Shown: positions 22,791 to 51,997 of the stretch, in pieces
Layout: each line of letters starts with the position of its first letter
How positions within the stretch are numbered: position 1 is the first letter of the stretch
Assembly (NCBI GenBank): GCA_951799425.1
Contig: OX637391.1
Location: 13,014,551 to 13,078,550, forward strand
Origin: Ilex aquifolium
Taxonomy: Eukaryota > Streptophyta > Magnoliopsida > Aquifoliales > Aquifoliaceae
DNA length: 64,000 nt
Direction of reading: 5' to 3'
The notes under the pieces: generated by a model
Database searches by the model: none
The model's input: only the letters and a program-made list of their open reading frames with translations
What the model was told of the DNA's origin: nothing
Position numbers and translations under genes: made by a program

Positions 22791-22824
22791 TCCTGTTACA
22801 AGTAAGCTGATTCCTCAGTGACTG

Positions 22825-24530
22825 ATGGTAATAACTCGAAATATGAGCAGAAGTCAAACAAACCTACCCCGAATGCAAGATCAGCCGGAAACTGCCCACG
22901 GCAGACAACCCGGGAACATCCAGGAGGCGAATTCCCCCATTAATAACGAGTTGGAGGCCCTTCGTCTCTTCAACCAACGCTTGCTAAAGGAAAACGAAGA
23001 GCTGTCAAAGCTCGTACAACGCCCACGGGAGGCACCACCGGCCCAAGAAGGCCAGAGTAATCCCCCTCATAGGGAACCTCGATACTGGGACCCCCTTAGA
23101 GAGGTCAGCGAGGGAGGAGAAGGCAGCCAGGCCAGGGGATATGTCCCCTACGTACCCCCTGGTAATGGCCATAACGACGAAGTGCAAAGTCGGAACGACA
23201 GGGGTGAGAGGGGTGATTTTTTCCCTTATCCGCAAGACAGGAGAGAGCAGCACTGGGAGCAACGCTTCAAAGACTTCCAGCAAGAGCTCAGTCATATGAA
23301 AGAGGCCGTAAAGAGTAAGGCCCCGGTTACAATGGATGTTTTGGTTCAGCAAACCGAATCCCCATTCACCACGGGGGTGCTACACTTCCCTCTCCCACCA
23401 AAGTTCAGGATGCCCCAAATGGAGGTCTTTGACGGATCGAAAGATCCCGTGGATCATCTCAACACTTACAAGAACCAGATGGAGCTACATGGGTACCAGG
23501 ATCCTGTACGCTGCAGAGCTTTTGCCATCACGCTGAAAGGCTCCGCCTTAAACTGGTTTCATAGGCTCCCACCAGCCTCGATCTCATCCTTTAAAGAACT
23601 CTCCATTGCTTTTGTCTCTCACTTTATAGGAGCCCGGATACGCAGAAAGCCGAGCTACCACCTGCTGAATGTGAAGCAGGGTCCCCAGGAAAACCTAAGG
23701 ACTTATGTCCAAAGATTTAACTCGGAGACATTGAAAGTAGACGTCCCCGATGAAAAATTCGCCATAACTGCTTTCATTGCAGGATTGGGAGTGCAATCAA
23801 AGGATTTGATGTTCTCCATATCAAAAAACCCTCAGGCAAGTATGGCTGAGGTGTTAGCCAAGGCAGAGAAATATATAAACGGTGAAGAGGCACTCCTTTC
23901 TAAGGTGGTCGGTACGTCTTCGCGAAAGGAAAAGGAAAAAGAAGAGAAGAGAAGGGACAGAAGCCCTAGGAAGGAAAAAGGACGAGAGAGGTCCCCAAGG
24001 AGGGACAGAGACCGCTCGCCAAAGAGGAGAGGAAATGTCAGAGATCGGCTGGGTCCCATGCAACCTGAACTACAACCCAGGTATGGGCCTCAGCGGTTTA
24101 CCCCACTCACCGCTGCTGTGTCACAAGTACTGTATGAGGTCCAGAACGAGAAATTCTTAAAATGGCCACCTAGGATGAAGGCAGACCCGGCAAAGAGAGA
24201 CCCCACGAAATACTGTGATTATCACCGGGATCATGGACACCACACTGATGACTGCATTCAGTTAAAGAAGGAAATCGAGTTCTTGATTCAGCGAGGTCAG
24301 CTGCGTCGTTTTATAGCCAATGATAACCAGCATCGAGCCCTTCCGCCTCCACCACCCCGGCAGCAGGCACCTGCACCACACCAGCAGCCTCTAGGGGAAA
24401 TCAGAGTGATATCTGGAGGGTTCGCAGGAGGTGGAGAGTCTAGCTCAGCTCGGAAGGCGCACCTCCGACGGGTCAGAGCCGAAGAAGCTCTCGAGGTGCA
24501 TGCTGTATCCAAAGCACCACGTTTGGATAC
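22825..24530 (+). other. gag region of the young Tat element
   Basis: The N-terminal part is charged. A typical retrotransposon gag core follows (FDGSKDPVDHLNTYKNQM, then LKGSALNWFHRLP). Next is a strongly basic Arg/Lys/Ser stretch (about 23.9-24.05 kb), and then a zinc-knuckle-like CDYHRDHGHHTDDC near 24.21 kb (C-x2-H-x3-H-x4-C spacing). These are the capsid and nucleocapsid parts of the particle protein. Confidence 0.9.
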
Positions 24531-27500
24531 AGCTATCACTTTTTCAGATGCTGATTTAGAAGGATGCCAATACCCCCATGATGATCCATTGGTGATACGA
24601 GCAGTGGTGGCAAATAGAACCGTTCATCGGGTTCTAATTGATAACGGGAGCTCGGCAGATATTATTTTCGCACCTGCGTTCGACAAGATGGACATAGGAA
24701 GGCAGAAACTTGAGCCAGTAAGCACTCACTTACTGGGATTCTCCGGGGAAAGGGTGCTCCCCCTGGGTTCAATCCAGCTCGTGCTCACCCTGGGGGACCC
24801 ACCTTGCCAAGCCACTACCACTGTCAAATTCCTAGTAGTCGATGCACCATCTGCGTACAACATCTTGCTTGGAAGGCCATCCTTAAATTCTATGAAGGCA
24901 ATCCCATCTGCCTACCATTTAGTCGTGAAGTTCCCTACAGAGAATGGAATCGGAGTGGTCCGAGGAGACCAGCGCGTAGCACGGGAATGCTACATGGCTT
25001 CTATGAAAGGGAAGGAGGTTGAGAACATCCAACTGGATGAGCTCGACATGAGAGATGAAATGGAGACAAGACCAATGCCATCGGAAGAGCTGGAACCAGT
25101 TCAGCTTGATGAGAAGCCAGAACACCTCGTTTATGTGGGTTCCAAACTGACCGCTGAGCTCAAAGAACTCCTCATCCAGTTCCTAAAAGAGAATATAGGA
25201 GTGTTTGCCTGGAAGCAAGAAGACATGGAGGGAATCGACCCTTCGGTTATTACCCACAAGCTATGCGTGAACCCAACTTGCAAACCCATCAAACAGAAGA
25301 GGAGGAGCTTTGCTTCTGAAAGGCAACGAGCAATAAATGAGGAGGTCAGCAAACTCCTCCAGGCCAAGGCTATCAGGGAGGTTGATTACCCCACTTGGTT
25401 AGCAAATGTAGTTCTTGTAAAGAAAACAAATGGGAAGTGGCGATTGTGCATCGACTTCACTGATCTCAACCGAGCATGCCCCAAGGACAGTTTTCCCTTA
25501 CCTCGGATTGACCTAATAGTGGATGCCACTGCAGGGCACGAGCTCCTCAGTTTCATGGACGCCTTCTCAGGCTACAACCAGATCAGGATGGATCCCAGCG
25601 ACCAGGAGAAGACCTCCTTTGTGACTGAACAGGGAACATATTGTTATCAGGTCATGCCCTTCGGATTGAAGAACGCTGGAGCCACTTACCAGCGGTTAGT
25701 AAATAAAATGTTCCAGAAGCAAATAGGAGCCTCCATGGAAGTTTAAATTGATGACATGCTGGTGAAGTCACTAAAAGTAGAGCTCCACATCGAGCACTTA
25801 GCTGAGTCATTCCGAATTCTAAGGGAGTACAAAATGAAGTTAAACCCTGCGAAATGCGCATTTGGGGTCTCGGCAGGAAAATTTCTGGGCTTTATAGTCA
25901 ACAGTAGAGGGATTGAAGCCAATCCAGAAAAGGTTAGAGCAATGATGGAAATGCAATCACCATCCAACACGAAAGAGGTGCAGCGTTTGATAGGCAGGAT
26001 AGCTGCACTGAGCCGTTTTGTGTCTAGGGCTAGCGATAAATGCCAGCCATTTTTTCAAATCTTGAAGAAGGCATTCCACTGGGATGCCAAGTGTGAAGAA
26101 GCATTCGAAGACCTAAAGAGATATATGAGCTCTCCCCCTGTTCTGGTGAGCCCTCTAGAAGGGGAAATCCTCACCCTCTACCTAGCAGTTTCAGATTTTT
26201 CAACAAGTGCAGCGCTAGTTAGGGAGCGAGACAGAGCTCAGCAACCAGTCTACTACTGTAGCAGAGCTCTGAGGGGGGCAGAGGAGAGATATCCAAGGAT
26301 GGAAAAACTCGTTCTAGCTCTGGTTACAACAGCTAGGAGACTTAGACCTTATTTCCAGGCTCATACTGTTGAGGTTCCAACAGATCAGCCAATGAAGCAA
26401 GTACTACACAAGCCGGAATCCTCAGGGAGGTTGGTTAAATGGGCCGTAGAGCTCAGCGAGTTTGATATCAGGTACAAGCCAAGAGCTGCCATCAAAGGGC
26501 AAATTTTGGCAGATTTTATTGCAGAATTCACAGCAGCAGCGCCTATGGAAACCACGGATTTAGTACCGGACCTTCCCATATGGAAGCTTTCAGTAGATGG
26601 AGCTGCCAATGCTCAGGGAAGCGGTGCAGGAATGATCCTGACCTCCCCAGAAGGAATAGACGTCGAATATGCCCTCAGATTTGGGTTCAAAGCTTCAAAT
26701 AATGAGGCAGAATATGAAGCCGTCATCGCTGGGCTTAATCTTGCCTATTCTATGGAAGCAGAGCAGCTGGAGATCTGCAGTGATTCTCAACTGGTGGTGA
26801 AGCAGATAGAAGAGTGTTACGAGGCAAGAGGCGAGAAGATGGTCCTGTACCTCAAAAAGGTACGAGAACTAATGAAACAGTTCGTGCAGGTTAAGGTCAG
26901 ACACGTGCCTAGAGTGGAGAACTCACGAGCAGATGCTCTGGCAAGGTTAGCAACTGCCTCGCAGGAGGATTTGGATAGGCTAATTCCAGTAGAGCACCTT
27001 CCAAAGCCCTCGGTAAGCATCGAAGAAGAGGAAATTCTATCAATGGAAGCTCAGCCGAGCTGGATGGATCCCATCGTAGAGTACCTTTAGAATGGAACTT
27101 TGCCAAATGATGCCAAGGAGGCATCCAAGCTAAGGGCCAGGTCAGCCAGATTTTCCCTGATGCAAGGGAAACTGTACAAGCATGGATTTTCAATGCCTCT
27201 CCTTAAGTGCGTAGGAGACGAAGATGCTAACTATATACTCAGAGAAGTACATGAGGGGATATGTGGCAACCACATAGGAGCTCGGGCCTTGGCAGGAAAA
27301 GTACTGAGGCAAGGATATTATTGGCCCACCATGCTCACAAGCGCCACCGACTTAGTAAGAAAATGCAAAACTTGCCAAGAGCATGCTAATATGTCCCACT
27401 GTCCTCCCGAGCTCCTAACCTCGGTGGTAAGCCCATGGCCTTTTCAGCAGTGGGGGTTGGACATTCTGGGACCCCTTCCCACCGGTGTGGGGCAGTGCAA

Positions 27501-28296
27501 GTTTGCCATCATAGGAGTGGATTACTTTACTAAATGGGCGGAGGTTGAACCTTTGGCGACGATCACAGAGCAAAAAGTTCAAAACTTCGTTTGGAAGTCG
27601 ATAGTTTGCAGGTTTGGAGTTCCCAGAGCATTCGTGTCTGACAATGGAAAGCAGTTTGATAATTCAAAGTTCAAAAGTTTTTGTGCCGAGCTCGGAATCA
27701 AGAACTATTTCTCAGCTCCTGCCCATCCCCAGTCTAATGGGCAGGCAGAGGTCACAATAAGAACCATAAAGTCAGCTTTGAAGACCAAGCTAGAAAACCT
27801 GAAAGGCAAGTGGGTGGAGTACATTCCGGAGGTGTTGTGGGCCTACAGGACCACCGCCAGATCTGCGACTCAGGAAACCCCCTTTGCTTTGGCCTTTGGG
27901 ACCGAGGCAGTGGCCCCAGTGGAGATAGGGCTCCAATCACCAAGGGTGGAGTTTGCGGATTCCGAGCACAATGATGAGTCTCTCTTGCTAAACCTCGATC
28001 TCTTGGATGAAAAGAGGGACAGAGCTCTGCACCGTGTCCGTACATACCAAAGGAAAACTGCAAGGTACTATGACAGGAGGGTAAGACACAGAAGTTTCAA
28101 GGTTGGAGATTTGGTACTTAGGAGGCTTATGCTTGCGAGAAAGGATCCCACGCATGGGAAATTGGGACCCAATTGGGAGGGGCCCTATATCGTGTCAAGG
28201 ATAATCAGACCAGGGAATTACGAGTTGCAAACAGAGGAAGGAAAGGTTCTACCTCACTCGTGGAATGCCGAGCACCTTAAGAAATTTTTTCAGTAA
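24530..28296 (+). other. pol region of the young Tat element: protease, RT, two RNase H, integrase
   Basis: Protease: VLIDNGSSADIIF near 24.63 kb, an aspartic active-site triad in DNGSS form. RT: about 25.2-26.0 kb, with CIDFTDLNRACPKDSFPLP and SFMDAFSGYNQI. RNase H: about 26.1-26.5 kb. A second RNase H-like domain begins WKLSVDGAANAQGSGAG near 26.58 kb and includes SNNEAEYEAVIAGL. Integrase: about 27.2-28.3 kb, with HHCC zinc site, the core (LDILGPLP, SDNGKQFD, PQSNGQAE) and a C-terminal GPNWEGPYIV segment. No chromodomain is seen. Dual RNase H is diagnostic of the Tat/Athila side of plant Ty3/gypsy. The region carries about two breaks in all. Confidence 0.92.
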
Positions 28297-28374
28297 GTGT
28301 TACTTGTAATAGAACTACTTTTAAATAAGAAAGAGCAAGCCTTTTATTCACCCTCCAATGGTCTCCAAAGTAGC

Positions 28375-28885
28375 AAGATGAGCTCTTCAGCTCATAAACA
28401 AACGATAAGCTTCAAAGCTTATAAATGCAAGATGAGCTCTTCAGCTCATAAACAAACGATAAGCTTCAAAGCTTATAAATGCAAGATGAGCTCTTCAGCT
28501 CATAAACAAACGATAAGCTTCAAAGCTTATAAATGCAAGATGAGCTCTTCAGCTCATAAACAAACGATAAGCTTCAAAGCTTATAAATGCAAGATGAGCT
28601 CTTCAGCTCATAAACAAACGATAAGCTTCAAAGCTTATAAATGCAAGATGAGCTCTTCAGCTCATAAACAAAAGATAAGCTTCAAAGCTTACAAATGCAA
28701 GATGAGCTCTTCAGCTCATAAACAAACGATGAGCTCTTCAGCCCATAAATTTAAGATGAGCTCTTCAGCTCATAGAAACCCGATAAGCTTCAAAGCTTAT
28801 AAATCAAAGATGAGCTCTTCAGCTCATAAAAACACGATAAGCTTCAAAGTTTATAAATTAAAGACGAGCTCTTCAGCTCGTACAA
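28375..28885 (+). repeat. 54-bp tandem array with two hairpins per unit
   Basis: Six near-identical 54-bp units start at 28375, 28429, 28483, 28537, 28591 and 28645, followed by degenerate units to about 28885. Each unit has two short inverted repeats: ATGAGCT-CTTC-AGCTCAT and ATAAGCTT-CA-AAGCTTAT. The array lies between integrase and the antisense gene, where Tat/Ogre elements are known to carry variable tandem repeats. The plus strand stays open across it simply because 54 is a multiple of three. Confidence 0.93.
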
Positions 28886-29040
28886 AATTCAAGGCTGAAC
28901 GCTTCTTGGAGACACCAACAGCCAAATTCAAGGCTGAACGCTTCTTGGAGACACCAACAGTCAAATTCAAGGCTGAATGCTTCTTGGAGACACCAACAGT
29001 CAAATTCAGGGCTGAACGCTCCGTGGAGACACCAATGGTC
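28885..29040 (+). repeat. 39-bp tandem array, four units
   Basis: Four units begin at 28885, 28924, 28963 and 29002. Each starts AAATTCAAGGCTGAA and ends with GGAGACACCAACAG. They follow the 54-bp array directly, so two unrelated arrays are stacked in the same spacer. Confidence 0.9.
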
Positions 29041-29940
29041 CTCCCCCCAGGACCGGATACCCTTGTGCACTGCCTACACACTCAAAGACCTCGAAAGGTC
29101 CAGAACAACTGAGAACACCTATGAGGTCAGATGAGAAGTAAGGTCAGAGCAGACATGATCTTCTGTTCTCCATCGATATCCGTGGTTCGACCTAGGGGGT
29201 CAGTGAAAGACCAAGGTCAGAGCAGACATGATCTTCTGTTTTCCATCTACGTTCGTGTTTCGAACGAGAAGAGTAAGCTGAAATAACCTAACAGAATTCG
29301 AGATGAATGAAAAGTCTGGCATTCGAAATATCAGACAGAACCCGTAAATTCAGACAAAAGAACCACGAAGCTCAGAAATAAACTTTAAGATCAGACAACA
29401 GAGCCAAATAGCTCAGAAAGCACTCTTCAGTTCATACAGAAAAGACAAAGAGCTCAGAGCTCTCAAGTTCGAAAAAAGAACCGTCTTAGCTCAGCAAGAA
29501 TTTATAAGCTCACAAGCACGAGCTATGCAACTCTGAAGGAGCACGCCAGTTCAGAATATAGAGTTGAGCAGCTTAGGACGAAGAAGAATAAGGAGTGGAC
29601 CCCTAGGGTACCAACTACCGAGCTTAAAAGGCTCGGGAAAAGCAGTCGAACATAACACCAAGTCCCCTGTACTCTTCAAACTTAGTAATTTTGCTTCAAG
29701 AAGTGCACAGCACCCCTCAAAGCAAAAGGGGGCAAGGGGAGTATACAAAGTTAAGTGCATGCAAAGCCAGGCAAATAAGTGCACCGTTGCGGTTCGAGTC
29801 GAAGTCGAATCAAAATCCAAAAATACATATATGCTGAAATTGAAAGATATGTATATATATACTAAGCCAGCAAAAGAGCAATAAATGAAGTCAAAGACTA
29901 CATCACGAAAAATTCTTTACAGAGAAATTACAACTAAAAA
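29041..29940. other. Spacer between repeats and antisense gene in the young element
   Basis: No coding domain is seen. AGGTCAGAGCAGACATGATC occurs twice (about 29141 and 29214), and AGCTCAGA-type words are frequent, like those of the LTR U3. It acts as sequence between two convergent transcription units. Confidence 0.5.
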
Positions 29941-29943
29941 GAC

Positions 29944-32573
29944 CTAGGATTCTGGAAGAAGAGGGATTGAAGGATCTCGCAGCTCAGTAGAGGAGTCCCT
30001 TGCTTCTGTTGCTGAGGGCTCACCTTGAACAAGGGCTTCAGACACCACGACAGCTGAAAAGGATGCAGAAACAGGAACAGCAGGAGCTGCAGCAGAAAGC
30101 TCAGGAATTGTTGTTGAAGGCTCAGGGAGCGCGATAATAGCTTCTGAGGTCCCAGGGGCGGGTGTGTCTTGACTTAAGGCAGCAGCTGGGGAGTCTGAGA
30201 TATCCCCCTCATTGTCAGTGCCAGATTCTTCCATTTCCTCCTCAGTGGGGATAGGGAGATTGAAATCAAGGTCTGGATATGCTTTGGTAGCCTTACGCCT
30301 AAAAGCAAGCCATCCAGTAGCCCATGAAGTGGTGGCCTCATCCTTAAGCTCGGCAAACTCTTTGTCTCTCTCTTGAACCAAATATTTCTGCTCCTCGAGC
30401 TCCTCACAGAGTTTGCCGTTAGCCTCACTGAGGGCAAGATAATCTTGATTAACCTGGATGAGCTCCCTCTTAGCATCAAAGGCCTCCTGGTTATCCTTGG
30501 ACCACGCCTCAACCTTAGCCTGCAGGTCTTCCTTAACCGCCTTCAGCTCATCCCGAGTCTTCTTTTCCCCTTCCTCAGCTCTGGCCTTGACTGTCAGTGT
30601 ATGTTTGAGATCGGAGGCTTGCTTCACCATCTGTTCGTTGAGACCCTCCATCTGCACTTTAAGGCTCTCCACCTGAGCTCTGAGGTCTTCATTCTCAAGA
30701 GACAATTCTGAAACCTTGGTCTTGTATTTCTTTAAGACCTGGAAAGAGCTCTCTTGAGAGCGAACTCGGTGCAGCAGACCTTTCGTATGAAGGGCAGCCT
30801 GAGAATATAAGGAAAGTACAGCAAATAATGTCAGACCACGAAATACAAACAAGCAAAGAGAGACAGGGGGTTAACACTCACAGTAGCAGCTCCCTGAAGG
30901 GCCAAAGAGATGGATTCCTCCAGGGGCATGGAAGCGGCCTTCAGGACATCAGATTCAGAAAAGATAGAGGAAAGAGCTCCAGCAGCAAGGTCTATATTGT
31001 CAAAAAAGGAGCCCTCATCTTCCTCCTCAGACTTTCTCTCTTTTTCGGTCACCTTCCCAGAAGCACTGTATTCGAACTTCCCGGGTTGAAGGTCGGGAAC
31101 CAATTCCAAAGCCTCCTTGACCTCAGAAGAAGAAGGGGAAGCCTGATCCCTTTCCTGAGCAGACGCCAACTTAGAAGGGGCCACTGGAGGGGAAGAAGAG
31201 GTGGTTGCAGCTTGTGGAGTTCCAGAGGAGGAGGGCGGAGCCTTGCTTGGAACCTGTCCTTCAGCTGCAGAGGGGGGAAAAGATGCTTCCAGCCTGGGGA
31301 TCTTAGCTCGAGTGTTTGGGCCGCTCCCAGAGCCTACCCGAGCTTTGCGTTTCCTAGACCTGCCACCCTCCATCAGCTCCGCAATTTTGGCCTGAAGCTC
31401 TTCTGGAATAACCTTCATGGTAGAAGGACCTGGAAGATCTGGAAGAAGTAGGAAAATGTAAAGAAAAAGAGAAAGGAAGGAAAGATAATGAAAAAAGGAA
31501 AAAGAATGGCGTTGAAATCACCTTCGTCAGCCCCTAAAACAGACAAGGGGATCGCTAAAGTCGCCACAGGAAGACTCAGACCTAGCTGTACCAGGTTCCT
31601 TGACTCAATCAAGTCGGCGTACTTCTCTGGCTTGATCTTCTCCAACTTTGCTAGCAACTTTTTGTCCTCAGGGCTGAGCTCGTAGCGTTCACCTAAGAGG
31701 AAGAAAGTATGCAAATAAGAAAAAGATAAGAGGCCGGCAGGTTCCAGATCAGAGCTCGAACTCAAGTAAGGACTCACGTAAATTATCTGGTTCAGCCCAG
31801 GCCGTAGGGATACCGAGTGTGTCTGTCTTATCAGCAGGGTTGTACTCCCAATTGGTGCCCCCGACAAAGAAGAAATGTTCCTTCCAGTGTTTATGGGAGG
31901 TCGGAATGTCAGAGATGAGCTGCCTAACGCTGGCATGCTTGGAGGCATACAAGAAGCCTCCGGAGGTCGGTTTTACATTGAAGAGCTCTAAGAACAAAGG
32001 AATGCTAGGAATCCCAAGTTTATGCTTCTTAAACAGGACTAACAGACCAACCATGACGCCATAGAAGTTGGGGGAGATCTGGGAAGGGCACACATGAAAA
32101 TGTTGCAGAACAGCCTTGATGAAGGGATGCAAAGGAAAGCGAAGGCCGTTGTCAAAAGCAGCAAGAAAGAAGCAGACTCTGTTATGAACTTTTTCTACAT
32201 AACAAACGGATCGATCTGGGCACCAGGGTTCGACCCCAGGGGGAAAACCATACCGAACTTTATAAGACTTCATTAGCCTAGGGGCCTCTTTACTGCAGCC
32301 CACAGATTCGGCATGCCTAAAGGCAAGCCCTAGATACGAGGTTTTTTCCTCCACCCCGACTCCACTTATCTTAGCTTTGCCTTTGTCAGGTCTGGGGGGC
32401 AGGGAAGATGAGGTGGAGGGAGGCTCCTCGGCGTAGACCTCAGCCTCTACAGCCTCTACACCCGGAAAATTATCAATCTCATCACCAACTTCCCCTAAAT
32501 CCGTATCTTCCCCGGCTGACCTAGATCCTAGAAGTGAAACAGAGGAGCGAGTGGCTTCAGAAGAAGCAGACAT
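29944..32573 (-). other. Antisense gene of the young Tat element
   Basis: The minus strand carries a long spliced-looking gene beginning MSASSEATRSSVSLLGSR near 32.57 kb. The first block (to about 31.8 kb) holds the globular domain annotated in plants as putative gypsy-type transposon protein (Transposase_28/PF04195-like: YGFPPGVEPWCPD, HPFIKAVLQHFHVCPSQISP). Three further exon-like blocks with GT/AG borders follow. They contain an acidic/Ser-Pro linker with a basic GGRSRKRKARVGSG segment, then a long coiled coil (about 30.2-30.8 kb: LENEDLRAQVESLKVQMEGL and heptads after it), ending in an acidic Ser/Pro-rich tail. Antisense genes with introns are a known feature of Tat elements, and their role is unknown. 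The gene looks largely whole here. Confidence 0.8.
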
Positions 32574-33200
32574 GATAGGGAGAGAAAAAGGAAGATGGAA
32601 AGAGCGATAGAGCAAAGGGGGATTAGTCAGGCACTCTCTAATGACCCGGGAATCAACACAGTGGCTCCCAACAGCAAGGATATGAACTACAGAACCCCAA
32701 TCCACGAAGTGGTGAAGTGGGGCTAGACAATGGTCACGATTCCAAAAATAAAAGAACCGAAAAGCCCAAAAATGCAATAACCACCTCGAACTTGAGGGAT
32801 CCAGAGCAAAAAAGGAAGAAATAAGGGCAAAGGACCTACCTAACCCAGGGATAGTGGCAAACAGGAACTTGGAACGAAATCGGAAAAGGAGGCGTCGCAA
32901 GTCTTCGAAACGAGGTCCGGAAATTCGATTTCAGGCAAGAAAATAGAAAAACCAAGGCAAGAAGGACTGGAATCACAGAGAGAGCGGAGACGAAGGGCAG
33001 TAAAGAAGATGAATAGTGCGAAGAAGCAGTTTAGATAGCCGTTTTAAGCATTTAAAGCCTGGGAGACATGGGCTGAGACGTGCGCGGGAATCGAGGAAAG
33101 TCATGATGGCTATAAAACCGTCAGAAATCCTCCAGCCACGTGCCAGCCACACGCACGTCTAACTCGTCTTGTACAAGTCATCCCCTGCCTGAGCTAACTC

Positions 33201-40278: not shown

Positions 40279-41589
40279 TTAGTTATTTCTCGTGCCTGAA
40301 GGCACAGAGTAATAAAAAAAAATTGTCAACAATAAACATATTTGTATTCACACCCAAAATCAAATCACAAACATAAAGAAACAATAAAGAAATTTAAGTA
40401 TCAATTGTAATGGGGGTGAGCGGTGCTAGTGGTGGTGGGCGGTAATGGTGATGGTGGGAGACGGTGATGGTTGTGGTGGGTGGCGACAACCGTGGTAGTG
40501 GTGGCAGTCGTGGGTGACAACGATGATGGTGGTGGTGGATTTTTAGGTGACGATGATGGTAGTGACAGCTATGGGTGACAGCGGTGGTAGTGGTGGTGTT
40601 GGAGGTGGTGGACGACAGTGATGGTGGTGCTGGGACGACGACGGTAGTGGTGGGCGGTGATGATAGTGGTGGCGGGCGACGATGGGTGCTTCTAGGCGAC
40701 AGTGTGATAGATGGTGACGAATGGCGGCAGTGGTAAGTGTAGTGGGGGTAGGTGACAGTGGGTGGTTGTAGTGGTGGGCGGTGACGGGTGGTGGTGGTAG
40801 GTGTGGTGAAGGTGGGTGACAGTGGCTGGTGGCGATGGTGGGCGACGACAGGTGGTGGTGGGTTGTGGTAATGGGTGACGGTGAGCAACAATGGTAGTGG
40901 TGGGTGCTGACGATGGGCAACGGTGGTAGTGGGATGATGGTGGTAATGATAATAAATATAAGAATAAGATGATGATGATGGTAGGTGGTGGCAGTAGACG
41001 ACGATGGTAGCAATCGGTGGTAGGTGGTGGTGGTGGCAGTGGGACAGTGAGGGTGGCGTGGGGGTGCAAGTGGGGCAGTGGTAGTAGTGGTAGTTGTGAT
41101 GGTCGTGGTAGTGGTGGTGGGGGGGTGGTGGTGGGACAGTGGTGGTAGTGGTAATGATGATGGTGGGGCAGTGGTGGTGGTGGGGCGGTGGAGGAGATGG
41201 TGGTGGTGGTGGAGTGGTGGGTGTGGTAGGGTGGTGATAGTGGTGGTGGCGGCGACAGCGGCGGTGGCGGTGGTGGGGGTGGTAGTGGCGGTGGTAGTGG
41301 TGATGGTGGTGGAGCGGTGGGGGTGATAGTGGTAGAGGTAGTGGTGGAGCGGTTCCAAACACTATTTAAAAAAAAAAAAATGCTTATGAGAAATAATTTT
41401 TAAAAACACTTTTAAAAAGTTATTCCAAATACACCTTTAGGGGCCTATTTTTCCTATTAAATTTGGGGTTTTAATATTATCCGTCAGATTAATTTTAAAG
41501 TAAAATTTAAAGAGATCTCAACCGCGAAAAACAAAAATTATTTTGTTTATCTTTTGAGATTTGAAATATATTGTACTTTATTATATAGA
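40279..41589 (-). mobile_element. Helitron (copy H3, minus orientation) with GGT/CCA minisatellite
   Basis: Minus strand: A|TCTATATAATAAAG starts at 41589. The 3' end is hairpin GTGCCTTCAGGCAC (40305 to 40292), then GAGAAATAA, then CTAA ending at 40279 and followed by T. All Helitron end rules are met. About 200 bp of its 5' part matches the two plus-strand copies at 50.2 and 51.3 kb (AATCTCAAAAGATAAA, TTTTCGCGGTTGAGAT). No Rep/helicase is present, so it is non-autonomous. Confidence 0.8.
40410..41355 (-). repeat. Trinucleotide-type minisatellite in H3
   Basis: About 950 bp is almost wholly GGT/GAT/GGC triplet variants on the plus strand (CCA/CAT/ACC on the minus). All frames stay open for long runs, giving His/Pro/Thr- or Val/Gly-rich pseudo-proteins. 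This is composition, not coding. Loose higher-order units of the GGTGGTGGGCGACGATGG kind recur. Confidence 0.9.
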
Positions 41590-42259: not shown

Positions 42260-42741
42260 ATGGCTAGTTCCCATGAAACCTTATTTTCAGCTTCTGAGTG
42301 TAACTATGATGTGTTTTTGAGTTTCAGAGGCCCAGACACTCGCAAATCTTTTACGGAGCATCTTTATACAGCTTTATCCGATGTTGGAATTCGCACGTTC
42401 AGAGATAACGATGAGATTGAGAGGGGAGAAAATATCAACTTCGAATTGGAGAAAGCAATCAAAATGTCGAGGATATCTATAATTATCTTCTCAAAAGACT
42501 ATGTGTCTTCCAAATCGTGCCTTTATGAAGTGGAGACAATTCTTGAACATAGTAAGAAAACTAAACATTTCATTTTGCCTGTCTTTTACGATGTAGATCC
42601 CTCTGAAGTTAAGAAGCAAGCAGAAGGTCTGGTTGCCGATGAAGGACAAGATGAACAGACGAACAACGTGAAGAGATCAACCGCGGCACTTAAGGAGGTT
42701 GTAAATCTAGCAGGGATGGTTTTGAAAAACCAAGCTGATGG
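42260..42741 (+). CDS. TIR domain exon of the TNL gene
   Basis: A complete first exon of 160 codons plus two bases, starting MASSHETLFSASE. YDVFLSFRGPDTRKSFTEHL (from residue 16) is the TIR start motif. The alphaA/BB segment has RTFRDNDEIERGENI. RISIIIFSKDYVSSKSCLYE follows, with Glu90 at the place of the catalytic Glu of plant TIR NADases, and then FYDVDPSEVKKQ. The exon ends LKNQADG at GATGG|GTAATT, the usual place of the TIR/NB-ARC intron. The domain is open and carries the expected motifs. Read past the donor site, translation would run one more codon or so and stop, giving a TIR-only protein of about 161 residues. Plant TIR domains cleave NAD+ to make immune signals acting through EDS1. 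Whether this one is expressed is unknown. Confidence 0.9.
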
Positions 42742-43915: not shown

Positions 43916-44618
43916 GCATGAAGCGAAGTTCATCCAGGAAGTCGTTCAATGGGTTAAAGATAAGAAAACTTGGCGGGCCATAAGTGTTGCTACCCACCTA
44001 GTTGGAATGGAGTCTCGAGTCAATAAAATTGATTGGTGATTCAAGAACTGTTCAGCCCCTGTCAGCAAACTTGTGATATGCGGGATGGGAGGTATAGGAA
44101 AGACTACTATTGCCAAAACTCTATACAATAGGCACTGTGGCACATTCAACGGAAGCAGTTTTCTCGAAAATATTAGACAAGTTTCTGAAAACCCCAATAG
44201 TTTACTTTATTTGCAAAGACAACTTCTTTCTAATATTCAAAATAAAAGAGAGCATAAAGTAAATGATGTTTATGATGGCCACAGGAGGCTTAAATTTGTC
44301 TTGTCAAGAAAAAGAGTTCTTCTTGTTCTCGATGATGCTGAAAACGAGAACCAAATAAAGGCAATACTAGGTCAAGAAAGAGATTTTTTTTTGCAAGGAA
44401 GCAAAATTATCATAACAACTAGGAAGGAGGGCCTGCTAAAGAAAAGTGAAATTGATATCACTTATGACATTGAAACACTGAGCGACATTGAATCGCTTGA
44501 ACTTTTCAGTTGGCATGCTTTTGGACAGAAACATCCTGTTGATGATTACATAGAACATGCAAAGAGATTTCTACATCACTGCAATGGGCTTCCTTTAGCT
44601 CTTGAAGTTTTAGGTTCT

Positions 44619-45278
44619 TCTGTAAGTAGGGGTGCAACTCGGGCGGGTTGGGCGGGTTAGACAGTCAACCCTAGCCCAACCTTAGGTATATAATCTTCAA
44701 CCCTAACCCTAACCCTAACCCTAACCCTACCTCGGGTTGAGGAACTCAACCCGAGCACTGCCCGAGTTTAATTCGAGCGGGCTCGGGTTGAATTCGGGTT
44801 CACTGCAAGAGAGACAGAGAGAGGGGGTAATAATTACAAATTCATAAAACAATCCATATATTTCATTCATAACAGTGCACGATTATTGATCATCTGCTTT
44901 CACACCAAAAAACTAGTGATCTCAAAGCACAATCCCAGAAAACATAGAAATTAGACCCATAAAAACATTAAACTTAAAATATCACACTATCACCACTAAT
45001 CACGCATAACAGAGTAGCAAGCAACAAGAAACAGAGGACGATGGAGTAAAAATGAAAAAAAGTGCTAATGTTTTATATATATATAATTATTTTTTAATTT
45101 ATCGGGTTCGGGTTGAAATCGGGTTGCCAATGCCTCAACTCGAGCCCGGCCCAAATTGAATTCGGGTTGAGGTTTTTTGACCCAAGCCCAACCCAAATAT
45201 TAAAAACCTTAGCCCAAGCCCTAATTTTTTCGGGTTGGGCTCGGGTTGCCCAACCCAAGTTGCACCCCTATCTGTAAG
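44619..45278. mobile_element. hAT-like element inserted in the TNL NB-ARC exon
   Basis: The element is 44627-45270 (644 bp). It begins TAGGGGTGCAACT and ends AGTTGCACCCCTA, a perfect 13-bp inverted terminus that continues imperfectly inwards (GGGTTGGGC blocks). It has a perfect 8-bp target duplication, TCTGTAAG, at 44619-44626 and 45271-45278. The GC-rich GGGTTGGGCTCGGG ends flank an AT-rich middle. No transposase is present. Perfect ends and duplication point to recent insertion into the sequence encoding GSSVREQS. Confidence 0.95.
44698..44729. repeat. CCCTAA hexamer run inside the hAT-like element
   Basis: Five tandem AACCCT hexamers. This is the vertebrate/Asparagales-type telomere hexamer, not the CCCTAAA heptamer of most plants. 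The neighbouring element sequence (CAACCCTAGCCCAACC) shows an easy local origin. Confidence 0.85.
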
Positions 45279-45756
45279 AGAGCAAAGTTTGGCGATATGG
45301 GAGAGCAAATTAAAGAAATTGGAAGCTATTCCAAATTCTGAAATTGTAAAAAAGCTCAGAATAAGTTATGACGACTTAGATTGGCATGATAGAAAAATAT
45401 TCCTCGATATTGTTTTTTTCTTCGTTGGAAAGAAAAAAACTGATACGGTGACAATCCTAGATGGATGTGATTGTTTTGTTGTGGCTGGGATTCAAAATCT
45501 TATTGAAAGAAATCTCTTAAAATTTGAAAATGGTAAGTTGTCAATGCATCCACTGCTGCAAAGAATGGGAAAAGCAATAGTTGACGAAGAATCTACACCC
45601 CCTCAAGAGCGTAGCAGACTCTGGCGTCACGAGGAATCCTTCAAAATTTTGAGAGACAAAACTGTAAGAATCTTCTTTCTCTTGTGTCTGCAATAGTTTT
45701 GGTCCATATGGTTACTCAATTAACCAATTTTCACTTATTTTGTTTGTCTTCATAAG

Positions 45757-46122: not shown

Positions 46123-46229
46123 GTATGTAACCTAATTTGCTTTTGCCGTTTTAAAGGATTCTAGTGTTTAATTATTTGTGCGAGTAGGCAACCTTTAACC
46201 TCTCTCTCTCTCTCTATGTTCTAAAGTAG

Positions 46230-47146
46230 GTTCTTGGACAGCTGAAAATTCTAAAGCTCAGTCATTCCCATTATCTTAACAAAACTCCAGACTTCACAAA
46301 AACCCCCACTCTACAGAAGCTGATTTTGAAACATTGTAAAAGATTGGTTGGGATTGATGAATCCATTGTGAACCAACATAAACTTTGTCTCTTGAATCTT
46401 AGAGGTTGCATTGGTCTGAGGGCACTTCCAAGAAACTTTAGTAAGGTAACATCTCTTCAAGAGATCGATATTTCCGATTGCTCAAATCTTATATTGTCGG
46501 CAGAGGAGCTCAAGAAGATGGAGTCAATGAGAGTACTTCGAGCTAACAGAATTGATATAAATAAAGCACTCGGTGTGACCCATGATATTGTACTAGTAGG
46601 GAATCGATTCGTTTGGCCTTGGGTACCAAAACCAATGAAAACCCAAACACATTATGGACCTCTTTCCCAAGTTCTTTAGTAAGCTTAAGCCTTGGGAATT
46701 GCAATCTCACCGATGATGCTTTTGGCATGGATTTTGGTAGGCTCAATATGTTGGAGTCCTTATCTCTTGTAGGAAATCAGATTCGTAGGCTACCAGATTG
46801 CATTGGAAATTTGTCAAGACTCCAAAAGCTAGATTTATCTTGCTGTCCAAAGCTCGAGAAGATTCAATGGCCAGCAATAGTGGTTGAAGAATTGAATGTT
46901 TCGGAGTGCAGATCTTTGCAACAAATAACTTATGATACTGAGGCCAGTGACCAGTCCACTAACAATTCAACATGGTGCTTGCATGAGGCTATGTTACATT
47001 CAAAATCACTTCAAGACAAAACCTGTAAAAGAAGTTGATGTAAGATTGATCAACAATGTTGGCTTCTTCAGCTTGGACTCCATGGCAGATGTTGAGGTGA
47101 TGATTGCAAATGGCATTGTGTGGAGCAGAGAGAAGCGTCCAGTTGA

Positions 47147-47148: not shown

Positions 47149-47189
<41 letters not shown>
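47149..47189. repeat. (TC)n microsatellite in the TNL intron
   Basis: A run of about 40 bases of CT dinucleotides directly after the donor of the LRR exon. Confidence 0.9.
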
Positions 47190-47226: not shown

Positions 47227-47708
47227 TTTTATTTTCCTGGACGAGAAGTTCCATGCTGGTTTAATTATAAGACTAATGGGCCCACAATCACATTAAATGT
47301 GCCTTCCAATCACCAAATACGAGGCTTAAATGTGTGCGTAGTGTACACATTTTCAGACATCGTAAATTGGTTACAATTTCCAATAGAGGTTAAAGTCCAT
47401 AAAAAGAGTAAGCATTTTGTGTGGCCCTATAGACCAAGGTGCTACGGTGTTCCAGAAGAAATGGATATATTGTATGGTTATGCCATTTGGGGCTTGAGGT
47501 TCCACTTGAAGAAGGTGATGAAGTGGAGGTTTCGTTTGAGATGAAGGCTGGGGGACAAATAAAGGAGTGTGGAGCCCACCTTTTGTACCATGAAGAGGTA
47601 GAAGAAATAAAGCAATACTGTAATACTCTGTTGTGTTGCTGGGATTCAAATTACCCGCTCCTATTAGGTGGGTATCTCCTCTCCAATCATGCTTTACAAC
47701 AACTATGA
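47227..47708 (+). pseudogene. C-JID (post-LRR) exon of the TNL gene
   Basis: After a CTGAG acceptor it reads FYFPGREVPCWFNYKTNG, then ITLNVPSN and LNVCVVYTFSD, the C-terminal jelly-roll/Ig-like domain that in TNLs such as RPP1 and ROQ1 contacts effectors. A frameshift near 47490 changes the frame, after which LEEGDEVEVSFEM and IKECGAHLLYHEE complete the domain; a stop follows at 47706. A GTGGGT site near 47668 could instead splice to the acidic exon at 47982. Confidence 0.85.
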
Positions 47709-50197: not shown

Positions 50198-51286
50198 TTT
50201 ATATAATAAAGTACAATACAATTCAAATCTCAAAAGATAAATAAAATGACTTTTGCTTTTCGAGGTTGAGATATTTTTAAATTTTACTTTAAAGTTAATC
50301 CGACAGCTAATATTAATACCCCAAATTTATTAGGAAAATAGGTTCCTAAGAGTGTGTTTGGATTTATAACTTATAACTTCTCATAAGTATTTAAAAAAAA
50401 ATAGTGTTTGGAATCATCTCACTATCACCACCACCACTGCCGTCATCGCTGCCATCACCCCACCATCCTCACCACCGTCACCCCACCCCCACCCCCACCC
50501 CCACTACCACAATTGTCACTCACCACCGATTGAAACCACTGTCATCCACCGCCCCCACCCACCATCATTGTCATCTCATTTTTATATTTATTACCACTAC
50601 CACCATCATCCCACTACCATCGTTAGCACCCACTACCACCATTGTTGCCCACCAACACCCATCGTTACCCACTACCACAACCTATAACCATCTGTTGTCT
50701 CCCACCTTCGCCGCCAGCCACTGTCACCCACTCTTACTATACCAACCACCACCACCCGTCATCGCCCACCACTGCCGCCACTCATTATCACCCACACCTA
50801 CCACTATCACCACCAGCCATCACACTGTCGTCCAGAAACACCCTTCGTTGCCCAACACCACCATCATCACTGCTCACCACCACAACCCACCACCGTCACC
50901 ACCACTATCGTCGCCCCACCACCACCACTACCAACCACCATTACCATTGCACAATACCAACCACACCCACCAAGATCGCCGTCACCCATGGCTACAACTA
51001 CCACCATCGTCACCCAAAACCAACCACCACCATCACCGTTGTCACCCACGACTGTCACCATCACCACGATCGTTGTCACCCACCACAACCATCACTGTCT
51101 TCTACCACCACCACTACCGCTCACCACCACTACCGCTCACCACCACTCACGCCTACAACAACCGGTGTTTAGATATTTTTCTCTCTGCTCTATGTTTGTT
51201 ATTTGATTTTGGGTATGAATATAAATATATTTATTGTTGACCATTTTTTTTATTACTCTGTGCCTTCAGGCACATGTAAGAACTAG
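50198..51286 (+). mobile_element. Helitron copy H1 with CAC-type minisatellite
   Basis: It starts TTTATATAATAAAGTAC (TC changed to TT) and ends with hairpin GTGCCTTCAGGCAC (51260-51273), ATGTAAGAA, CTAG at 51286. The 5' 190 bp match H2 and H3. The minisatellite occupies about 50.42-51.16 kb. Non-autonomous, no coding. Confidence 0.75.
50420..51160 (+). repeat. CAC/CAT/CCA minisatellite in H1
   Basis: About 740 bp of triplet variants of CAC, CCA, ATC and ACC, the complement of the array in H3. Long open frames rich in His, Thr and Pro are a by-product. Confidence 0.9.
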
Positions 51287-51997
51287 TCTATATAATAAAA
51301 TATAATACAATTCAAATCTCAAAAGATAAACAAAATCAATTTTTTCTTTTCGCGGTTGAAATCTCTTTAAATTTTACTTTAAAGTTAATCCGACGGCTAA
51401 TATTAACACCCAAAATTCAATAGAAAAAATAGACCCCTAAGAGTGTGTTTGGAGTGACTTTTTAAAAGTGTTTATAGAACTTATAACTTCTCATAAGTAC
51501 TTTAAAAAAAAAGTAGTGTTTGAAACTGCCTACCACCACCATAATCGCCACTGCCACAACCCAGCACCGCCACCGCCACCGCCACTGTCATCGCCCCACC
51601 ACCACCACCACCAACCACCAGCATTATCGCCCACCACCACCATTGCCAACATCATCACCATCACCTACCACCACCCACACCCACCACCACAACTACTGTC
51701 ACCCATGACTGTCACTACCACCATCGTCATCCAAAACCCACCACCACAATCATCATTGCAACCCACGGCTGCCATCGCCACCACGGTCTTCACCACTCAC
51801 CACAATCATCACCGTTTCCCGCCACCACCATGGTCGTCCACCACCACTATCACTACTCACCACCACTACCATCAGTGCTTAAATTTCTTTTTTTCTCCTC
51901 TTTGTTTGCGATTTAATTTTAAGTATGAATACAAATATATTTATTATTGACCATTTTTTTTTATTACGTTGTGCCTTCAGGCACGAGAAATAGCTAG
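51287..51997 (+). mobile_element. Helitron copy H2, directly joined to H1
   Basis: It starts TCTATATAATAAAATATAAT immediately after the CTAG of H1. It ends with hairpin GTGCCTTCAGGCAC (51971-51984), GAGAAATAG, CTAG at 51997, followed by T. At 711 bp it is a shorter copy, with its minisatellite (about 51530-51870) roughly half as long as in H1. Confidence 0.8.
51530..51870 (+). repeat. CAC-type minisatellite in H2
   Basis: About 340 bp of the same triplet composition as in H1. Confidence 0.9.

Follow-up and report, generated by a model that had tools for sequence, protein, structure and literature searches.

Insertions of the maize elements Ds and Ds1 are reportedly spliced as introns, in accounts said to be those of Wessler in 1987, Dennis in 1988, Wessler in 1991 and Giroux in 1994, the last concerning sh2-m1. 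The passages of two papers on which we draw present Ds, a hAT element, as the known plant case of a transposon behaving as an intron (PMC4256211, PMC5432752), and PMC3260210 and PMC4256211 cite papers whose titles concern the splicing of Ds as an intron. According to the relevant passage of a 2013 survey, an exonic Ds1 provides three splice donors, which lie 12-33 bp from the end of the element, together with two acceptors (PMC5432752). For plants, a study of five grass genomes singles out the transposon turned intron as the only model of intron gain with in vivo support; it adds that one case was precisely processed and that none of the proposed fixed gains is linked to a transposon (PMC4256211). 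For the sorghum NLR gene ARG1, a MITE located in the 5'-UTR is reported to have brought in a splice junction and to be removed by splicing (PMC9048912). Introners are DNA-transposon insertions whose 5' splice site can come from the target site duplication (TSD) and whose arrival sometimes alters neighbouring codons; the passages that describe them in this way report none in land plants (PMC9860276, Gozashti 2022).

The locus considered here lies in a window of 64,000 nucleotides from holly, Ilex aquifolium, which is the whole stretch of DNA that was analysed. Like the maize case, it concerns a coding exon of a plant gene into which a non-autonomous hAT element has inserted, with candidate splice sites at or near the ends of the element. 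The donors of Ds1 lie inside Ds1, whereas in the holly copy the GT comes from the TSD, and the splicing of Ds has been shown by transcripts, whereas that of the holly element would be a prediction from DNA, in an otherwise damaged host gene. As in ARG1, so far as the cited part of that report extends, a MITE lies in a plant NLR gene with a splice-like junction; there the gene works, the MITE lies in its untranslated leader and is tied to higher expression, and RNA data exist, whereas the holly insertion falls in coding sequence of a broken copy and its splicing would be a prediction. The spliced MITE of ARG1 removes part of the novelty, since an immune-receptor case is already in print, in non-coding sequence. 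The holly element shares with introners, as described in those passages, a DNA transposon origin and a candidate 5' splice site derived from the TSD. Introners form many similar introns across a genome, whereas only 1 of 40 sampled copies of this element family lies in a recognised host coding exon and splice-motif TSDs occur at chance frequency. The host gene resembles the TNL pseudogenes of tandem NLR clusters, where copies are open or broken by stops, frameshifts and transposons, and differs from them only in its splice-like TSD. Among the entries listed by literature searches, no report of this insertion was found.

The original prediction, that the element could act as a new intron, appealed to precedents in other eukaryotes; these are known, but maize Ds and the ARG1 MITE are closer and lie in plants. 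The proposed mechanism would thus be known in kind, plants included, while unproven for the holly copy. The explanation we favour, at a probability of about 0.87, is that a hAT MITE inserted into what is now an NLR pseudogene produced a splice-like TSD by chance, and that no new intron was made.

The element and its family

The sequence interrupting the NB-ARC exon is delimited by the following features.

44627-45270, no strand assigned: non-autonomous hAT-like element of 644 bp, recognised by its terminal inverted repeats, TSD and family consensus
44619-44626, plus strand: 5' TSD, TCTGTAAG, identical to the 3' TSD, with empty sites in paralogues
45271-45278, plus strand: 3' TSD, TCTGTAAG, identical to the 5' TSD
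44627-44643, no strand assigned: 5' terminal inverted repeat, TAGGGGTGCAACTCGGG, pairing with the 3' repeat
45254-45270, no strand assigned: 3' terminal inverted repeat, CCCAAGTTGCACCCCTA, pairing with the 5' repeat

An exact 8-bp TSD, 17-nt terminal inverted repeats that pair at 16 of 17 positions with TAGGGGTGCAA at both ends, and empty sites in all four close paralogues bear out the prediction of a hAT-like insertion at this place. The short terminal inverted repeats of hAT elements are, as a consensus, of the TAGGG/CAGGG kind. The element in the window has both an 8-bp TSD and short repeats of this kind, and fits a non-autonomous hAT element of MITE type. It contains a telomere-like array of 5.2 AACCCT units (44699-44729), of which the family consensus, built from 40 copies, has one unit fewer. 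Its divergence from that consensus, in which it is itself included, is 1.6%, and of its 10 substitutions all but one are C>T or G>A, an excess that is likely a signature of methylation.

The family is high-copy. Across the 800-Mb genome, a DNA search that scored 40 out of 1,858 candidates gave at least 42 matches, and among the matches listed the nearest relatives of the window element are 95% identical to it. The exact 12-mer TAGGGGTGCAAC from the end of the terminal inverted repeat occurs 2,131 times genome-wide, against 6 for the reversed control, a count that may take in related families with the same ends. A shorter pattern, GTAAGTAGGGGTG, was rejected as a family probe because 54 matches against 26 for its reversed control made it too unspecific. 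Forty-one other copies were examined and both ends were located in 39, of which 38 carry an 8-bp TSD (exact in 34, with one or two mismatches in 4); L004, with no TSD, is the sole exception. L030, outside this count of 39, has a TSD with one mismatch, and L051 has no recognisable 5' end. Domains for hAT dimerisation are numerous in the genome (at least 150, the best 150 of 1,396 candidates having been scored). At four transposase loci, inspected over 3,252 bases each for an autonomous partner, no TAGGGGTGCAA end was found within one mismatch.

Had this been an introner-like family, its TSDs or element ends would systematically supply splice sites. Instead, GTAAG adjoins the family's terminal inverted repeat at about chance frequency: it stands immediately 5' of TAGGGGTGCAA three times genome-wide, when about 2.1 are expected (4^-5 x 2,131 ends). 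A G precedes the repeat in 472 cases (22%). The other two GTAAG copies are genuine elements, L030 with TSDs GTTGTAAG and GTTGTGAG and L031 with TSD AACGTAAG; their empty sites lie in no long reading frame, the longest open stretches across them being 31 and 80 aa, and they were set aside as second intron-like cases. We rejected the idea of an introner-like family, which the motif counts do not support and for which the sampled copies yield no second case. Among 40 copies, the window copy and 39 others, the window copy alone spans a recognised host coding exon. Eleven of the others have an open stretch of at least 90 aa over the empty site, in which Pfam found LTR-retrotransposon domains three times and nothing eight times; the test covered these eleven, the other 28 copies having shorter stretches. 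Copies were selected by similarity, so that the sample is no census of exonic insertions.

Elsewhere in the window, an LTR retrotransposon occupies 22822-29112, its successive open stretches encoding domains of gag, reverse transcriptase, RNase H and integrase; after it comes a frame built of repeats of the type KMSSSAHKQTISFKAYKC. A Transposase_28 (putative gypsy-type) domain is encoded on the minus strand at 31749-32930. Long low-complexity open frames with much His, Pro and Thr lie at 40394-41399 (minus strand) and 50395-51950 (plus strand); several of these overlap one another in different frames, and they are probably repeat DNA.

The host gene and its lesions

TIR, NB-ARC and LRR regions follow one another in order in the host (Pfam PF01582, PF00931, PF23282 and LRR models), as in a TIR-NB-ARC-LRR receptor gene. 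Its relevant parts are these.

42260-42741, plus strand: exon 1, TIR domain, open, with no damage seen (Pfam TIR PF01582, E=2.3e-37)
43916-45663, plus strand: exon 2, encoding NB-ARC and winged helix and broken by the element; putative borders
44037-44039, plus strand: private premature stop TGA, where all four close paralogues have TGG
46637-46638, plus strand: private 1-nt deletion in the LRR exon, a frameshift; the extra base is present in all four paralogues
46944-46950, plus strand: private 7-nt insertion in the LRR exon, a frameshift; absent from all four paralogues
47229-47230, plus strand: junction of a private loss of 41 alignment columns, kept in all four paralogues
47458-47459, plus strand: private 1-nt deletion in the last exon, a frameshift; the extra base is present in all four paralogues

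Exon 2 encodes an NB-ARC domain before the element (PF00931, E=7.9e-25) and a WHD_ROQ1 domain after it (PF23282, E=3.4e-12). Up to the insertion point it is 94-96% identical to four paralogues on the same contig, and in each of these exon 2 is uninterrupted, with 378-379 aa open. Their empty sites are clean: both flanks align with an 8-bp overlap and no insert, the site reading TCTGTAAG in L035 and differing from it by one base in the remaining three. The insertion is therefore private to the window copy among the five. Exon 1 is 95-96% identical to that of L032 and L033, in which no break was seen by eye on the open stretches. L034 and L035 have breaks other than those of the window copy, and for these two no TIR exon was found in fetched stretches reaching about 3 kb upstream of exon 2. 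Within 44580-45700, identity to L035 is 94% before the insertion point and 97% after it, a shift that suggests gene conversion or recombination may have taken place in the NLR cluster.

The TGA at 44037-44039, which the original prediction did not mention, is in frame and lies upstream of the element in the same exon, so that translation from the TIR exon would stop after about 201 codons, before both the P-loop and the element. Four further private lesions follow downstream. The 41-column loss takes away TTTACAG, which in three paralogues probably serves as the last intron's acceptor (L035 reads ACCG), the assignment of this intron being deduced from the reading frames of the paralogues. Private indels at 46212 and 47156-47161 fall in CT repeats of introns and were excluded from the lesion count. 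The lesion calls come from one assembly, in which sequencing error is possible. With the TGA and the four lesions beyond it, no open reading frame for a full receptor exists. As all five lie outside the element, splicing it out could not yield an intact receptor, and this copy is most likely a pseudogene. The first proposal, that the gene could have survived the insertion as such, is possible but moot for an allele disabled at five other places.

A truncated protein of about 201 aa, comprising the TIR domain and ending at the TGA, could still be made from such a gene, the element then lying merely in the 3' untranslated region. TIR-only proteins are active in plant immunity, and the TIR exon is open and 95-96% identical to that of two paralogues. 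The introns downstream of the stop weigh against it, because an mRNA with such introns is targeted by nonsense-mediated decay, and we regard a TIR-only product as very unlikely.

In exon 2, the window copy has 15 private changes in 363 codons (1.4%): 12 nonsynonymous, 2 synonymous and 1 stop. The private nonsynonymous to synonymous counts in the other four paralogues, 8:5, 16:4, 15:5 and 23:4, are not clearly different, so the ratio in the window copy is by itself no proof of relaxed constraint; gene conversion in the cluster may also blur counts of private changes. The divergence of the element, 1.6%, is close to the 1.4% of exon 2, which makes insertion and decay roughly the same age. These figures are too alike to place the stop before or after the insertion, and an ordering by divergence alone was abandoned.

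Splice signals at the insertion

Three sets of candidate splice signals bear on the fate of any transcript.

44622-44627, plus strand: candidate splice donor GTAAGT, five TSD bases and the first base of the element
45185-45186, plus strand: alternative in-frame acceptor inside the element, TTTTTTGACCCAAG, keeping 28 element codons
45277-45282, plus strand: three tandem AG acceptors, those at 45278 and 45280 out of frame and that at 45282 in frame

The donor is as the original prediction described it. The TSD and the first T of the element form TCT/GTAAGT at the insertion point, and with 6 of 9 matches to CAG/GTAAGT it is a good donor (the donors of introns 2 and 3 have 5 and 7). The arithmetic of excision is also right: removing 44622-45282 joins 44621 to 45283 and GSS to QSLAIW in frame, with the loss of VRE, 44619-44621 being a full codon. 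The acceptor fared less well. The AG at 45282 is in frame, but it is weak and the third of three, the first two being out of frame. Splicing to 45278 (AAG, the first AG after the element) would lead to a stop after 20 codons, and to 45280 after 10. An acceptor at 45259 would give a stop after 5 codons. Further into the host exon, 45303 and 45315 would keep the frame open but are pyrimidine-poor. The competitors at 45278, 45280, 45186, 45303 and 45315 had been left out of the prediction. Five candidate acceptors were scored for T over the 20 nt that precede the final three bases of the intron: they contain 3-8, and the acceptors of introns 1-3 in the five gene copies contain 8-13.

Introns in plants require a relatively AU-rich sequence. 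The GC content of the element is 0.425 overall and 0.53 and 0.49 over the 100 nt at its two ends, compared with 0.37 and 0.33 in the flanking exon and 0.35 and 0.31 in introns 1 and 2. Folding predictions give the RNA of the element strong self-pairing (z -7.9, 20 shuffles), and in the predicted hairpin the first three intron bases of the donor are unpaired and the next three lie in a stem. Such a hairpin, if it forms, may help or hinder splicing.

The element could be a new intron, 44622-45282, spliced well enough to have kept the receptor alive, with the other lesions arising later. A GTAAGT donor matched by an in-frame AG at 45282 is what this would require, the similar divergence of element and exon would allow the lesions to postdate the insertion, and maize Ds and ARG1 offer precedents. 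Set against these are the earlier, out-of-frame AGs at 45278 and 45280, the scarcity of T upstream of the AG, the GC-rich element and the five other lesions of the present allele, and we consider such an intron highly improbable. Measurable splicing from 44622 to 45282, to which we likewise give little credence, would reveal a MITE-made in-frame coding intron and a receptor that outlived the insertion before unrelated lesions disabled it.

A donor as good as the gene's own, together with the existence of in-frame acceptors, makes partial splicing possible. The element might be partly spliced or exonised through mixed acceptors (45186, 45259, 45278 and others); the transcripts so produced would be untranslatable or short-lived and would have no function. 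The numerous AGs in the last third of the element, towards its 3' end, would lend themselves to this, as would the donor at 44622, and the cited portion of the 2013 survey has exonic Ds1 providing both donors and acceptors (PMC5432752). The strong predicted self-pairing of the element RNA stands against it, with an effect that could go either way. We hold this outcome to be possible but rather unlikely; it is compatible with a splice-like TSD of chance origin, to which it adds a behaviour of the RNA.

A splice-like duplication, probably by chance

The origin we favour, a chance splice-like TSD and no new intron, would begin with the transposition of a hAT MITE from a high-copy family into one gene of a tandem TIR-NB-ARC-LRR cluster, where it entered the NB-ARC exon. 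Transposition would have duplicated the 8-bp target TCTGTAAG, and because that target contained GTAAG by chance, its duplication created a GT-AG pair. Perhaps this insertion was the earliest lesion and decay followed it, if the events came in that order. Any RNA transcribed from the gene would be read only to the TGA of exon 2, for about 201 codons, whatever became of the element. Splicing from 44622 would presumably run out of frame or to another AG more often than it restored the frame. The counterpoint is that splicing of MITEs and of Ds is known in plants. The interpretation of the element as an intron is partly supported, and is neither needed nor consequential for the present allele.

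As it stands, the locus is a clean example of a hAT MITE breaking a member of an NLR cluster, with the empty sites preserved alongside. Splicing, if it were shown, would make the locus a natural plant example of an intron gained within a coding exon through a TSD.
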